IMG/VR virus record: IMGVR_UViG_3300025312_000012
Location: 1 to 38,739 of that record
Length of the DNA stretch: 38,739 nt
Source: a virus
Reading direction: 5' to 3' (one strand)
The notes under the pieces are model-generated. The model did not search any database. It had not been told where the DNA came from and worked only from the letters and a program-made list of their open reading frames with translations. Position numbers and translations under genes: made by a program. The first letter of the stretch is position 1. Every line of letters begins with the position of its first letter. Positions 19,052-31,520 of this stretch are shown piece after piece.

Positions 19052-20185
19052 TCATTTTACTAATTTGTAAATTACCGAAGGTTTTTTACTTTCTCCGATA
19101 CGTTCTCTCTCAACTTTTATTCTGTTACCTTCTGCCAGCGATTCCAATATCTTGTCTACAAAATTTTTAGGGTAGCCTGTATGGTTAAATAGTTCCGACC
19201 TGCCGATACTGCCTCTCCTTGTTATCAATTCCACTACTCGTTTGGTAGCTTTCTCGAAAGGTGTGAATGCAAACTCTCTTTCGTATAATCCCAGGAAGTT
19301 TCGTATGATATAATTACAGAATTGCGTAGCATCGGCTATATCCCCAGATGACATAACATTTGATCCCCGCATAGCGCAATTGCAAAGGGCTACTTTCCAA
19401 GCTATAGTATGTAATCTTGCTAAGACAGGTTGAGTTATCGGCGGCGCTTTTTCTATCTTATTCGATATATCGGCAAACCAATCTCTATACATTGTCTCGC
19501 CCTGCTTATCTATTGAAACAGGCCCCCTTACATTTGTCAAGCTTTTGAGCGCCAATAAACATTGCCTAAATAATGTATCATTGGGCATTTTAGGTATAGC
19601 TTCCAACCTACTAAACTCGCCAGGGATAAATAAAAATCTCGCCAAAAATCCCGCCCTAAAATCATCTTCCTTATTCTCCTTCAGAAACCAATCGAGAGTA
19701 GTGGCGGTGCCAATACAGGGGAAAGGTTGCTTGATTGTCTGCGTTCGCTGTTTTGTAGTTCGGGTATAGCTATCATCGCAATCATAAAGGTCAGTCAGAA
19801 ATGCCTTTAACCCTTCGTTGTAGCTACTGTTAAGCATACCGAGAAATGCCATAAACTCCGAGTGGTAAAATATCGCATTAGGTTGCGTCTCCATCCAATC
19901 AAACATTGCTTCCCTTGTGAAATCCCCGGGTGCCAGTATCAGTGGTTTTACGTGATGTATCATATTTCTGGATATATATAGAGATGTGGATTTTCTTGAC
20001 AGCGAAGAGCGGGCTATCAGGCAAATCCAGAAGTTTGGATATACGGGCCTATGTCCCAACGGAAACCATAACTGCCTACCAAGAACCGCGCCGATAGTAA
20101 AATAAGCCATAGCTGTTTGGAATTCTTTAGGAGCATCGCAACTCTCAGTAGCATACTTTGTATATAAAGTTACAAAATTATCCAT
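19052..20185 (-). CDS. DUF3987-like ATPase / replication-associated protein with altered P-loop
   Basis: A 377-residue protein when started at ATG 20185; an upstream TTG at 20260 would add 25 residues but overlaps a better-supported small gene. It resembles DUF3987-type proteins often found beside primases. The P-loop region reads ARSSLSRKSTS (residues 58-68), with no Gly before Lys65. The acidic Walker B motif is replaced by IFYHSE (105-110), and AGFLARFLFIPG (178-189) follows. A winged-helix-like end (residues ~300-377) could bind DNA. The stop of the zinc-finger gene overlaps this start in ATGGATAA, so the two are probably translated together. It may be an inactive or specialised ATPase; primase-helicase activity is not shown. 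Confidence 0.62.
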   Translation of the reverse strand: MDNFVTLYTKYATESCDAPKEFQTAMAYFTIGAVLGRQLWFPLGHRPVYPNFWICLIARSSLSRKSTSLYISRNMIHHVKPLILAPGDFTREAMFDWMETQPNAIFYHSEFMAFLGMLNSSYNEGLKAFLTDLYDCDDSYTRTTKQRTQTIKQPFPCIGTATTLDWFLKENKEDDFRAGFLARFLFIPGEFSRLEAIPKMPNDTLFRQCLLALKSLTNVRGPVSIDKQGETMYRDWFADISNKIEKAPPITQPVLARLHTIAWKVALCNCAMRGSNVMSSGDIADATQFCNYIIRNFLGLYEREFAFTPFEKATKRVVELITRRGSIGRSELFNHTGYPKNFVDKILESLAEGNRIKVERERIGESKKPSVIYKLVK

Positions 20186-20324
20186 TTTGTTTGACACAAA
20201 TGTGTCGCTTATAGCAACCTTGCTTGCAGTAATTGTATTTACAGCGATTACACTTTCCAATTCCTTTACCCCTGACCTTCCCGCAGTAATGACAAATATA
20301 GCATACTACTTGCTCTCGTATCAC
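20178..20324 (-). CDS. 48-residue HIT/MYND-like zinc finger protein
   Basis: GTG start at 20324 with GGGAG 8 bases upstream; the stop at 20178 overlaps the next gene's ATG. The protein has nine Cys and two His, spaced C11-x2-C14-x10-C25-x2-C28-x4-C33-x3-C37-x3-H41-x-C43, with an additional Cys at 8. This fits the cross-brace zinc layout of HIT/MYND fingers, which bind partner proteins, better than a bacterial zinc ribbon. Such fingers are mainly described from eukaryotes. It is too short for standard gene callers. The gene itself is well supported by its junctions, and the family call is tentative. Confidence 0.72.
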   Translation of the reverse strand: MIREQVVCYICHYCGKVRGKGIGKCNRCKYNYCKQGCYKRHICVKQNG

Positions 20325-26730: not shown

Positions 26731-27417
26731 TCAAATTTTGGGTTCTGGAAATCTCAAGTTCTTACGGATTATCTTACACATAGTTTTATGGGTTTTTAAT
26801 TTTACCGCATTCGCCGCATTCGCCGTATACGCCGCATACGCCGCCGCATTCACCGCATACGCCGCCGCATTCGCCGCATACGTCGCCGCATACGCCGCCG
26901 CATTCACCGCATACGCCGCCGCATTCACCGCATTCACCGCATACGCCGCCGCATACGCCGCTTCCCTTACTACTTCGATAGTCGCATCGTTTCTCGTCCA
27001 CATTTCGGCGGCTTCAATCGCTTTTAAAGGTCGAAGTTCATTTTTAGGAATATATTTCAAAGATAATCTCGCACATTGGCAAGCAGTCCACACAATCTGT
27101 TTTTTCGTATTCCACTTTTTTTTATCAACCATTTTACCCGCAAGCCATAAAAGCCAATCGGCTCTCTCGCAATTTTTAAGAGCTGTTTTCCAATTCTTTT
27201 GCGTCTTAATCCAAACAACAGCTTCATTGCAAGCACCGACCGATTCTAAAAACTTAACTACATTTTCCATATTCTCTCCTTTCTTTTTCTTAATATCGTA
27301 AATTATACCCACTTGTCCCTTTTCCGCCTGCCTTAATAACTTTATGGCATTCTCGATTTCTGGAATTTGCTTTTTATAAATATCGGGGTGTTCGAGTTTA
27401 TTGTCTGGAACGCTCAT
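26731..27417 (-). CDS. Imm-5-like immunity-family protein with alanine-rich repeat
   Basis: A 228-residue protein. From Met50 (27270, with its own AAAGGAGA site) it reads MENVVKFLESVGACNEAVVW, then NCERADWLLWLAGKMV and RPLKAIEAAEMWTR, the pattern of proteins annotated as Imm-5-like immunity proteins. Residues about 155-205 are a repeat of the AAAYAVN type, and the last 25 residues are a basic helix. The first 49 residues look like a separate small module whose helix is shared with the Cys-pair gene at 26098-26517, so two starts or a fusion are possible. It may neutralise a host toxin, but this is not shown in phages. Confidence 0.65.
   Translation of the reverse strand: MSVPDNKLEHPDIYKKQIPEIENAIKLLRQAEKGQVGIIYDIKKKKGENMENVVKFLESVGACNEAVVWIKTQKNWKTALKNCERADWLLWLAGKMVDKKKWNTKKQIVWTACQCARLSLKYIPKNELRPLKAIEAAEMWTRNDATIEVVREAAYAAAYAVNAVNAAAYAVNAAAYAATYAANAAAYAVNAAAYAAYTANAANAVKLKTHKTMCKIIRKNLRFPEPKI
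26806..26960. repeat. GC-rich tandem repeat coding for the Ala-Tyr-Asn stretch
   Basis: About 155 bp of near-repeats of units such as GCGGCGTATGCG and GTGAATGCG, within an AT-leaning genome. The repeat period matches 21 bases (seven codons) in several places, so copies can be gained or lost without changing frame. All frames on both strands are open here, which makes spurious genes. The 3' end of the repeat (low coordinates) is more irregular. Confidence 0.85.
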
Positions 27418-27437: not shown

Positions 27438-28025
27438 TTACTCTCCCCGTAGGTTTGCAGGCTTAACTTTAATCCAGTGACTAACTTCCGGGCAGTCAAA
27501 ATATCCTATTCTGTAAGGAGCATTGGCTTTCTTTATCACTATGCCTTCGCCGCCGTTAGCGATAATCATCTTATAATAGTCCAGCTTGTTGGACCAAACT
27601 CTTTCGGGCATAGTGATATGTTTTGTAATAGGCAGGGTTGCTTCCAATATGCCTCGCCTTTCGGTTTCGGTATTATCCAAAAGTAGCTTGCCTGTCTTTT
27701 TGATTATACTGAATGCGTAAAACACTTCCTTCACCTCATACTTTCGCCACTTCAAAAGTTCTCCGTCAATTATTGTATCGCAGGGAAGATACATTTCAAG
27801 TTCTTTTCGCAAGTTAGGTAAGGCGTGTGTTATGATGCTATGGTGGCGTGTCCATAATTCTACCTTGCCATTTTTATCCGTATGCACCATACACCTCCAG
27901 CCGTCTCGCTTGGCTTCCGCCCACCAGTCAGCATCGTTGTTTAATCTTTCAGCTATACGACTGGCGGGCGAGGCATAGAGGGGCTTCTGTGGATAAAGAT
28001 AGTCCTTATTACTAATTCTAATCAT
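27438..28025 (-). CDS. Compact ATP-dependent DNA ligase
   Basis: Seals nicks in DNA using ATP. Motifs are visible over 195 residues: the AMP-accepting lysine in EAKRDGWR (Lys39), TIIDGEL (motif III, residues 84-90), FYAFS (near 102), GGEGIVIKK (motif IV, 158-166) and SHWIKVKP (motif V, 182-189). The protein ends almost immediately after motif V, so the usual C-terminal OB domain is missing, making this one of the shorter ligases. Activity may rely on a partner for DNA clamping. The start overlaps the previous gene's stop (ATGATTAG). Confidence 0.85.
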   Translation of the reverse strand: MIRISNKDYLYPQKPLYASPASRIAERLNNDADWWAEAKRDGWRCMVHTDKNGKVELWTRHHSIITHALPNLRKELEMYLPCDTIIDGELLKWRKYEVKEVFYAFSIIKKTGKLLLDNTETERRGILEATLPITKHITMPERVWSNKLDYYKMIIANGGEGIVIKKANAPYRIGYFDCPEVSHWIKVKPANLRGE

Positions 28026-29315: not shown

Positions 29316-29591
29316 TTACCTCTTATACCCCTCATCTTCCTTAACGGCGTTAACTACTCGAAGAGCAAGCTCGAAAGCTAAAGCCAAATTCATAACTTTA
29401 TCTTTGCCTATTCCTTTGATTGCATAAAACTTTTCAAATGGTTGGTCGCACATACCTTTGAATGAGCCAAACTTGTCAAATACTTTTTGCGAAATCTCAT
29501 CATTTAGGCACATAATACCCGAAAGTAATTGCTCATCCGTTAAAGTATCCGGACCCAGTTCCCTTGCCTTGCCTCTATTTGTATTCCACAT
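29316..29591 (-). CDS. RadC N-terminal-type helix-hairpin-helix protein
   Basis: A 91-residue protein from ATG 29591, with GGAGG five bases upstream. It matches the N-terminal domain of RadC-type proteins: DTLTDEQLLSGIMCLNDE, then a helix-hairpin-helix core IKGIGKDKVMNLALAFELAL. The MPN/JAB metalloprotease domain that normally follows is absent, so only the DNA-binding part remains. A role in binding branched or damaged DNA within the phage recombination set is inferred. Confidence 0.75.
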   Translation of the reverse strand: MWNTNRGKARELGPDTLTDEQLLSGIMCLNDEISQKVFDKFGSFKGMCDQPFEKFYAIKGIGKDKVMNLALAFELALRVVNAVKEDEGYKR

Positions 29592-29616
29592 AAAAACCTC
29601 CAATTCTAAAACACCA

Positions 29617-29937
29617 CTAAAATAAATCACCATTATCGACAGAGGACGGAGCAGGTTTAGCGACCATCTGCCCCGCCTCCGTCCCGTTCACATTTTCAGA
29701 AGCGACTCCCAAAGAATTTTCTCTCTCTTTTCTAACACAAACCCCGCCGCAATAATTCTCTTTATCATTAAGAGCGTAGAATTCCTTGCTACAAACTACG
29801 CAGGGTTTTAGCCCCCGTGAGGTTTTTACTCTTGGGGGGCTATTCACGGGTGTGGCCTTTAACTCTGAATTTTTATGTATACAATTCTTACAATCGCATT
29901 TAACTAACTTGCCATCCTGTTCATATACTATTCCCAT
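29617..29937 (-). CDS. Zinc-finger-like protein
   Basis: A 106-residue protein with AGAGGTGA before ATG; its ATG overlaps the stop of a 25-residue frame (TAATG). The N-terminal half contains CDCKNC and then CVVC followed by NYCGGVC, enough for two metal sites. The C-terminal third is disordered and acidic. Located directly downstream of the DnaX-like gene, so it may contact the replisome. Its stop is 26 bp from the RadC-type start. Confidence 0.7.
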   Translation of the reverse strand: MGIVYEQDGKLVKCDCKNCIHKNSELKATPVNSPPRVKTSRGLKPCVVCSKEFYALNDKENYCGGVCVRKERENSLGVASENVNGTEAGQMVAKPAPSSVDNGDLF

Positions 29938-30014
29938 TATTTCACCTCTAAACTTTTAATGTAATCCCAATAGACCACATATAATTTGTTTTCCGCTGAA
30001 TTTTTTTTACTCAT
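29937..30014 (-). CDS. 25-residue peptide between DnaX-like and zinc-finger-like genes
   Basis: ATG 30014 has GAGGTGA nearby and its TAA overlaps the next ATG. It encodes 25 residues starting MSKKNSAENKLYVVYW, basic at the start, aromatic in the middle. The context (clean ribosome site, one-base overlap) argues that it is translated. Function is unknown, and the small size makes family assignment impossible. Confidence 0.55.
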   Translation of the reverse strand: MSKKNSAENKLYVVYWDYIKSLEVK

Positions 30015-30026
30015 TTTATCACCTCA

Positions 30027-30425
30027 TTAAATTCTGTCCGCTACCATAGATAACCATTCACCCATCCTCGCCAATTCGTCTGCGTGGCACTCATCAATTA
30101 TAAATATACGATACTTGCCAAAAAGATTCGAAAGCCCGCACTCATTTTTGATTTCTACTATATTGTCCTTGCCAGAATAACTTGCCCCGTCTATTTCACA
30201 AGACGGACACACACCGCAAATAGCAGGCGAGTTTACGCAGTTAAGAGCAGACGCAAACAACCTTGCCAAAGTCGTCTTGCCGGTCCCCGTAGCTCCACTA
30301 AATAGATAACTACTATATATCTCCCCGGTCCCCAAACTTGCTTTAACAAACTCCACCGCTTCCAAATTGCCATAGCACTTGTCTAACCTTGCAGGTCGAT
30401 ATCGATTATGTAATCCATTAGCCAT
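30027..30425 (-). CDS. Truncated DnaX-like clamp-loader ATPase
   Basis: Only 132 residues, compared with over 350 for the conserved DnaX core. It opens NRYRPARLDKCYGN, then SYLFSGATGTGKTT (Walker A, residues 44-51), the four-Cys zinc module (Cys63, 70, 73, 76) and FIIDECHA (Walker B, Asp111-Glu112). It stops about 18 residues after Walker B, before sensor 1, the SRC finger, the lid and the collar. No downstream frame restores the rest, so this is not a simple frameshift. A stand-alone adaptor that joins or disrupts the host clamp loader is a plausible but untested inference. First gene of the leftward operon, with GGAGGTGA before ATG. Confidence 0.8.
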   Translation of the reverse strand: MANGLHNRYRPARLDKCYGNLEAVEFVKASLGTGEIYSSYLFSGATGTGKTTLARLFASALNCVNSPAICGVCPSCEIDGASYSGKDNIVEIKNECGLSNLFGKYRIFIIDECHADELARMGEWLSMVADRI

Positions 30426-30518
30426 ATATCACCTCCATACACTACCAAATATATAAGCAAATCATATGCCATACCAAAACCGCTCAATTTCGCTAATTTC
30501 AGCGTTTTGCCCCGCCCC

Positions 30519-30642
30519 ACTGTGTCAATTTCCCCAAACACTGCGTAATTCCCCCCAATACATACTTCCTGCGTAAATTCACTCACTTTTTTTGGACATA
30601 AGAAAATATGCCTGCGTAAAATTACTCACCACTGCGTCAAAT
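30519..30642. repeat. Iteron-like array, five copies of a CTGCGTAAATT-type motif
   Basis: Five direct copies on the + strand start near 30520, 30541, 30569, 30612 and 30632 with variants CTGTGTCAATT, CTGCGTAATT, CTGCGTAAATT, CTGCGTAAAATT and CTGCGTCAAAT. Two subtypes are visible: copies 1, 2 and 5 are preceded by CA and followed by a run of C, while copies 3 and 4 are followed by ACTCAC. Spacing is about 20-21 bp within pairs. They could be binding sites for a replication initiator or for a regulator of the leftward operon; -35-like TTGACA/TTGACG on the minus strand fall inside copies 1 and 5. Confidence 0.7.
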
Positions 30643-30683
30643 GCCCCAGATGACGGGAACGAGATGCTTCGTATGTCCTGAAA

Positions 30684-30794
30684 ATGAAACTCTACCTGCA
30701 ACTAACTGAAACTCAATCTCTACTTTCGAAGCAAAATATATCAGAGGAATCCCAGACGGAAGAAACCGAACCCCCTTTTGAGAGAGTATATTAG
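30684..30794 (+). CDS. Possible 36-residue protein in the control region
   Basis: An ATG-started frame of 36 residues on the rightward strand, beginning MKLYLQLTETQSLLSKQN and ending polar and acidic. The composition looks protein-like, but there is no ribosome binding site and no neighbouring overlap. It may be a real small early rightward gene, or chance. Listed because it fills part of a long gap without a better-supported gene. Confidence 0.27.
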   Translation: MKLYLQLTETQSLLSKQNISEESQTEETEPPFERVY

Positions 30795-30829
30795 AGCAAG
30801 GGGTGCATACCAGCGTGTATATTTCAGTA

Positions 30830-30916
30830 ATGGCTATTGGGCCTGTATTAAATTTCTTGAAAAGAAATAGATTTACTACTCCTACGGAGGGTAAGGAATT
30901 ACGATATAATGGATAG
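30830..30916 (+). CDS. Possible 28-residue protein in the control region
   Basis: An ATG-started frame of 28 residues, MAIGPVLNFLKRNRFTTPTE then GKELRYNG, on the rightward strand. It has protein-like composition but no ribosome binding site, and it ends inside the first AATGGATA repeat. Could be a small gene or chance; confidence is low. Confidence 0.25.
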   Translation: MAIGPVLNFLKRNRFTTPTEGKELRYNG

Positions 30917-31274
30917 TAAGATAGCGATATCCATTTTATATCTTATTATTAGGAAAAGGTTAAGTATCTACTATATAGATAGATATGTATATAATATATA
31001 TAATAATAAATAATAAGATGAGATATAGCAAGGTAGTGGTGCATCATCAAAACAATATATAATATATAGTATATTGGAGTATAATATATATATACGTAAA
31101 ACGATGTGCAGTATATAGTAATATGGGGGCAAAATTTTAATAATGGATAAATATACACAGGGAAATCATCTTAATATCTTATTATTGGTTGCAAGGCGAC
31201 GTAAGGTGCTATATAACAAATAGTTGATGTTTTCTAATAATGGATAATAAACTGGATATAGGTATCTTATTATT
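30908..31274. repeat. AT-rich repeats AATGGATA and ATCTTATTATT
   Basis: AATGGATA occurs at 30908, 31142 and 31239, each followed 24-33 bases later by TATCTTATTATT (starts 30939, 31175, 31263). One inverted copy, AATAATAAGAT, lies at 31009-31019. At the first copy AATGGATA and TATCCATT (30928-30935) form an 8-bp inverted repeat. The stretch 30961-31120 is made almost only of A and T. This could be a DNA-unwinding element plus initiator or regulator sites. Confidence 0.65.
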
Positions 31275-31412
31275 GGATATGCCTATTTTTCTTACATTAT
31301 TAGGGAAGTTAAATATCTATTTAGTGGATACTTACGAACTGAGGATTTGGGGGGATGTGTGTAGTAGTAATGGCAAGTATAGCGATTCCTCACTCTGGTA
31401 GCGGGTTTTGGG

Positions 31413-31434
31413 ACTCGGCGAGCACTCGGCGGGC
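31413..31434. repeat. Two tandem copies of an 11-base ACTCGGCG unit
   Basis: ACTCGGCGAGC is followed directly by ACTCGGCGGGC, in a GC-rich part of the leader of the scaffold gene. It may form part of a regulatory site or an RNA leader structure. No known binding site is recognised. Confidence 0.6.
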
Positions 31435-31520
31435 GATTTATGCTTTCCGAACAAGTTTGGCGAACAACCTGGGGGCTGTGTCTACGAGAACAAGTGGAAT
31501 TGATAGCAGGAGATTGTTTT

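Follow-up and report, generated by a model that had tools for sequence, protein, structure and literature searches.

The closest described counterparts of the protein reported here are the bacterial DnaX proteins (gamma/tau), and more precisely their domain I (TIGR02397; E. coli 1njf/1jr3). In E. coli gamma, residues K141, E144 and E145 of helix alpha3 form salt bridges to E92, R11 and R56 of the neighbour near the ATP site, and R98, K100 and R105 can contact DNA (PMC6997377). Some phages encode DnaX-like clamp-loader subunits (PHROG 5846, the 168 sequences examined below, Streptococcus phages Dp-1 and MS1, Dinoroseobacter phage R26L), the genes of which, in R26L and MS1, adjoin other replication genes, e.g., polymerase I or the delta' subunit. 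Other phage proteins target the host machinery: an inhibitor of the E. coli clamp loader is phage-encoded (Yano and Rothman-Denes 2011, cited in PMC3594737), and SPP1 gp40 binds the host DnaX (PMC6316719). In the open-access literature, we found no truncated phage DnaX described.

The window analysed here, i.e., the whole 38,739-base record of an uncultured phage (IMGVR_UViG_3300025312_000012), contains a protein (P0001, hereafter the fragment) which, judging from its motifs, is a stand-alone piece of the DnaX AAA+ module, corresponding to the first two thirds of domain I, with the nucleotide-binding half and the knuckle kept. Its homology to the N-part of the phage DnaX-like subunits is clear (about 33–40% identity), but these are complete AAA+ proteins (about 306–342 aa in MS1 and R26L), unlike the fragment.

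A DnaX domain without its C-terminal parts

The gene of this 132-aa protein (30027–30425, minus strand), delineated from its ORF and profile matches, runs from an ATG at 30425 to a TAA at 30029–30027 and closes with two tandem stops (TAA TGA), while a strong Shine-Dalgarno sequence (GGAGGTGAT; 30428–30436, minus strand) lies just upstream of the ATG. Given the composition, the chance of 132 codons staying open is about 1e-4. The next gene is a 25-aa ORF (29937–30014, minus strand) with its own GAGGTG and no similarity to DnaX, which overlaps the start of a 106-aa ORF at 29937 (TAATG). A frameshift or a readthrough at the end of the fragment was considered and ruled out, since the downstream frames give no DnaX sequence. 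On all these points, a previous sequence-only reading of the window was right: it had located the gene correctly (on what is the minus strand), noted the clean end of its frame and the separate ribosome site of the next gene, and deemed a simple frameshift unlikely.

By profile matches, the kept part is N-terminal DnaX beyond doubt. The NCBIfam profile TIGR02397 (dnaX_nterm) matches at 7.8e-29 over profile positions 4–127 of 355, with 101 bits vs. a curated cut-off of 250, which restricts the homology to the N-terminal part. PF13177 (DNA_pol3_delta2; 4.2e-12) exceeds its gathering score (46.8 vs. 27 bits), while the PHROG 5846 clamp loader matches at 2.1e-27 and E. coli gamma at 3e-12 over residues 7–114. 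As in bacterial domain I, the protein features a Walker A (GATGTGKTT, residues 44–52; 30270–30296, minus strand) fitting GxxxxGK[ST], a four-cysteine knuckle (C63-x6-C70-x2-C73-x2-C76; 30198–30239, minus strand), the EIDxAS strand and a Walker B with its catalytic Glu (IFIIDE, residues 107–112; 30090–30107, minus strand) fitting hhhhDE, followed by C113 and H114. The knuckle aligns with that of Zn-type DnaX and has the DnaX zinc-module pattern, hence a putative zinc site; compared with Zn-type DnaX, about 12 residues are deleted between its fourth Cys and the EIDxAS strand. In an alignment with 60 viral relatives, from which our invariance and identity figures are drawn, all invariant positions up to Walker B are kept (R10, P11, Walker A, D111 and E112), including the six Walker A residues that are invariant across the 60 relatives (G44, G47, G49, K50, T51 and T52), and residues 1–114 are 36% identical to the relatives vs. 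40% among the relatives. Profiles and alignment thus bear out the earlier claim that the N-terminal motif, Walker A, the four-Cys module and Walker B are kept.

The protein had also been described as cut just after Walker B, which holds in that sensor 1, the SRC finger, the lid and the collar are absent, but not literally, since 18 codons follow the DECH of Walker B and extend to the end of a diverged helix alpha3 (ADELARMGEWLSMVADRI; 30030–30083, minus strand). These last residues (115–132) are the least conserved of the entire comparison, with a mean identity of 12% to the relatives vs. 47% among the relatives, and the conserved K, E and P of the alpha3 motif LLKxxEEPP correspond to S126, A129 and I132. 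Compared with bacterial DnaX, the fragment therefore ends before sensor 1, has neither SRC finger, lid, collar nor tau tail, and has lost its alpha3 contact residues. Sensor 1, the SRC finger, the lid and the collar are absent in every frame of the circularised genome, on all of which a profile of the C-terminal half built from 150 relatives was run unfiltered (best E = 0.12, vs. 1e-60s for the relatives); likewise, PF12169 (gamma3; lid and collar) is absent from the genome, and no second DnaX piece was found in the closed genome. Devoid of these parts, the protein cannot be a clamp loader: on the features tested, it is homologous to DnaX yet not a DnaX, i.e., too little to load clamps alone and either a meddler in host replication or a leftover.

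The contact residues known from E. coli gamma are preserved on one side only. Those receiving the neighbour at the ATP site (R11, R56 and E92) are retained as R10, R55 and E77, whereas those offered to the neighbour are lost (K141 to S126, E144 to A129), D130 being a mild change. This one-sided pattern is suggestive only, as it would fit a capping mimic but also drift after truncation with the ATP site spared by chance. Among the residues able to contact DNA, R105 is replaced by V90, and R98 and K100 are not retained. The loss of R105 was considered as a mark of the fragment only, an idea weakened by the nearby relatives L160 and L187, where the Arg is also replaced. Finally, the clamp-facing loop GLSNLF (residues 97–102) loosely resembles clamp motifs, with the leading Gln missing, and as a candidate clamp-binding motif it is a weak lead.

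The AAA+ sheet order is 5-1-4-3-2. With beta4 (sensor 1, between beta1 and beta3) gone, the Walker A strand is left partnerless and the fold open. In the AlphaFold model (pLDDT 83), beta1 is indeed unpaired, and the fold it predicts agrees with that of E. coli DnaX (TM 0.7–0.8). As a control, a relative of full length was truncated at the corresponding position, and its model shows the same open sheet with a pLDDT of 92. AlphaFold confidence was thus rejected as proof of autonomous folding and, the cut relative scoring higher, the model offers no support for an adaptation to free-standing life. Among the strong matches in the viral structure library, no phage clamp-loader domain is of comparable shortness.

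The phage genome and its early cluster

The two ends of the record overlap by 99 bases, and their joint is spanned by two further IMG/VR contigs at 99.98–100% identity, which indicates that the map closes and that the genome is complete. The virus is podovirus-like, with a recognisable portal (phrog_156) and major head protein (phrog_14242), and the best relative found is Manatee Spring podovirus ctLwi270 (MW202554), of which the capsid is 26% identical. Searches with the capsid, the portal and the RadC N-part returned either further contigs of this virus or distant records without DnaX, and nothing else; DnaX is absent from all the capsid-related records examined, which are mostly fragments. 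These records, in which the full-length DnaX at this locus that would have spoken against the sequence-only reading did not appear, make the fragment gene look like a private acquisition of this phage lineage.

The early genes form a leftward cluster (30425–18540), which the fragment heads, as had been proposed, and which also has DUF3987, MGM101/Rad52-like, nuclease and ligase-domain genes. Neither polymerases of families A, B and C nor a sliding clamp were found in the complete genome, in agreement with the earlier claim that the phage has no polymerase, so that replication must lean on the host. Shortly downstream of the fragment, a gene (29316–29633, minus strand) encodes the RadC N-terminal helical part alone (UPF0758_N; 105 aa), the JAB/MPN domain being absent. 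An ATP-dependent DNA ligase cut to its adenylation domain (195 aa; 27438–28025, minus strand), in which the OB-fold was not seen, is the third partial DNA-metabolism protein of the cluster. The DUF3987 primase/helicase-like protein (19052–20260, minus strand) matches chiefly the C-terminal half of longer primase-helicase families and displays an odd Walker A (ARSSLSRKST), while another protein (26731–27417, minus strand) contains a run of Ala-rich AAAYAVNAAAYA repeats, where the antisense frame is open too.

An AT-rich intergenic region with repeats (about 1 kb; 30426–31439) separates the leftward early cluster from the rightward structural genes. Just upstream of the fragment gene, it includes four 19-nt direct repeats (30518–30648; reference CACTGCGTAATTCCCCCCA, 68–74% identical), which are possible operator or iteron sites. 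Between the divergent clusters, an AT-rich block (30900–31330) combines repeated TAATGGATA / ATCTTATTATT units with long inverted repeats (44 nt at 77% and 21 nt at 90%) and is a possible origin or control region.

Relatives and alternative explanations

Our collection of 168 DnaX-like sequences consists of two IMG/VR profile scans (80 loci each) and eight phage records, a few sequences being RFC-like and a few records being present twice. The short phage fragments that the sequence-only reading had suggested looking for did not turn up, as none of the 168 relatives examined in these viral collections is cut like ours, and all but three of them extend at least 290 residues from the match start. 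Specific patterns retrieved no close relatives from IMG/VR, nor from 84,980 bacterial and archaeal genomes. In a 62-row tree, the fragment is located beside a Zn-type phage clade holding L160 and L187, with moderate support (86/79), and has the longest end branch (1.26 changes per column).

A relic without function is only slightly less likely than a host-docking domain. In this scenario, itself a tentative one, the dnaX gene of an ancestor would have lost its 3' part by deletion, and the translated 5' stub would be functionless and drifting. Such a fate is consistent with a singleton among 168 relatives, its very long branch, the poor conservation of its last 18 residues, its incomplete fold and the deletion after the zinc knuckle; considering the isolated position, the branch, the tail and the missing central strand, the earlier statement that decay is unlikely was too strong. 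Conversely, the 132-codon frame kept open behind a perfect Shine-Dalgarno sequence speaks against a relic, as do the two Walker motifs and the full set of four cysteines, which are intact despite divergence, and the lost 3' part left no trace.

It is rather unlikely that the fragment is a repurposed ATP-binding module partnering a phage protein (e.g., DUF3987 or the MGM101-type annealing protein) instead of the host replisome. Such partners, along with the nuclease and ligase-domain genes, do share its early cluster, and a protein having lost the equivalents of R105, R98 and K100 need not act on clamp-loading DNA. However, relatives that are full-length or intein-split (L160, L187) have lost the Arg at R105 as well, and there is neither a fusion nor a conserved neighbourhood.

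The three relatives not reaching 290 residues (L160, L187 and L188) are short because an intein interrupts the gene: their N-part ORF ends after 224–230 residues, the intein is inserted precisely after the Glu of Walker B and before the Cys of DECH, and a LAGLIDADG ORF and the C-half follow. In L187 (2995–5959; IMGVR_UViG_3300018065_000011), of which L188 has the same ORFs, and in L160 (2986–5069; IMGVR_UViG_3300025810_000004), the dnaX N-part, the LAGLIDADG ORF and the C-part are separate ORFs, the frames of which overlap in L160. The C-parts begin with ...AHN|CHELSRQ or ...VHN|CHRLSK. These loci could be fractured genes that have a split intein; for L160, with its overlapping frames, the alternative is a frame-broken intein. 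In L084 and L138, the DE|C site also holds an intein, but in a single frame.

That the fragment could similarly be the N-extein half of a DnaX split by a DE|C intein, with its partner half elsewhere, is very improbable. Admittedly, the N-parts of L160 and L187/L188 are likewise separate ORFs stopping after Walker B, the fragment adjoins their clade, and its good similarity stops at the residue matching the intein site, where dnaX inteins are inserted in L084, L138, L160 and L187/L188. Yet the split genes include an N-intein and a LAGLIDADG ORF and have their C-half next to them, none of which is seen here, and the closed genome without a C-half largely refutes this explanation. Moreover, the tail after C113 fits the alpha3 of the clade (H114, M121, L125 and D130) better than an N-intein, and the block A pattern is, by eye, absent from it; together with the missing C-half, this makes a split intein unlikely. 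An assembly or sequencing artefact is just as hard to credit, for although the DnaX region is on a single contig (two overlapping IMG/VR contigs covering only the other side of the genome), these two contigs agree with the window at 99.98–100%, the next genes are in order with Shine-Dalgarno sequences, and the tandem stops are followed by no DnaX C-terminal sequence in any downstream frame, which also speaks against the frame-extending sequence errors considered by the sequence-only reading.

A possible action on the host replisome

An active role aimed at the host replisome, such as the tapping into or blocking of the host clamp loader that the sequence-only reading had suggested, is possible, and we put it forward tentatively. 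Among the active readings, the most likely is a domain docking one-sidedly on the host clamp loader or clamp. The fragment would bind ATP, and its ATP-site face would dock onto a host clamp-loader subunit or, alternatively, its clamp-facing loop onto the host clamp. Lacking the SRC finger, the alpha3 trans contacts and the collar, it would behave as a one-sided cap, which may alter or block host clamp loading early in infection, and a phage without its own polymerase would gain from pausing or redirecting the host replisome. A more specific proposal, in which a DnaX cut in mid-domain mimics a subunit on one side only and caps the host clamp loader in a dominant-negative manner, is doubtful.

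In favour of such a role, the receiving residues are kept while the offered residues and the SRC finger are lost, the gene combines a strong Shine-Dalgarno sequence with a position in the early cluster, and phage polymerase and clamp were not found. Precedents for this target are SPP1 gp40 and the clamp-loader inhibitor mentioned at the outset; the inhibitor, which reportedly comes from phage N4, may be seen as a functional analogue. The inhibitor and the fragment are likened by proposed function alone, i.e., the host clamp loader as a target early in infection, and the fragment, unlike the N4 inhibitor, would act by DnaX mimicry. Against a host-directed role, we count the loss of the collar, which is the main oligomerisation and assembly part of clamp loaders, the open fold with beta1 unpaired and the higher score of the cut relative, and the lack of a second example of the short form. 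Besides, this role presumes a bacterial host; with an archaeal host using RFC, the reading would need to change.

Beyond the fragment itself, the analysis revealed inteins in phage dnaX, inserted at the cysteine of Walker B, and in two cases the gene is divided into separate ORFs. If the fragment is a relic, it shows that a replication gene reduced to a part can still be retained and translated in phages. If it is functional, it would be a DnaX mimic that targets the clamp loader but is not itself a clamp loader, i.e., a small tool of natural origin to stop or redirect bacterial replication, and it would test how far an AAA+ domain can be reduced and still have an activity.
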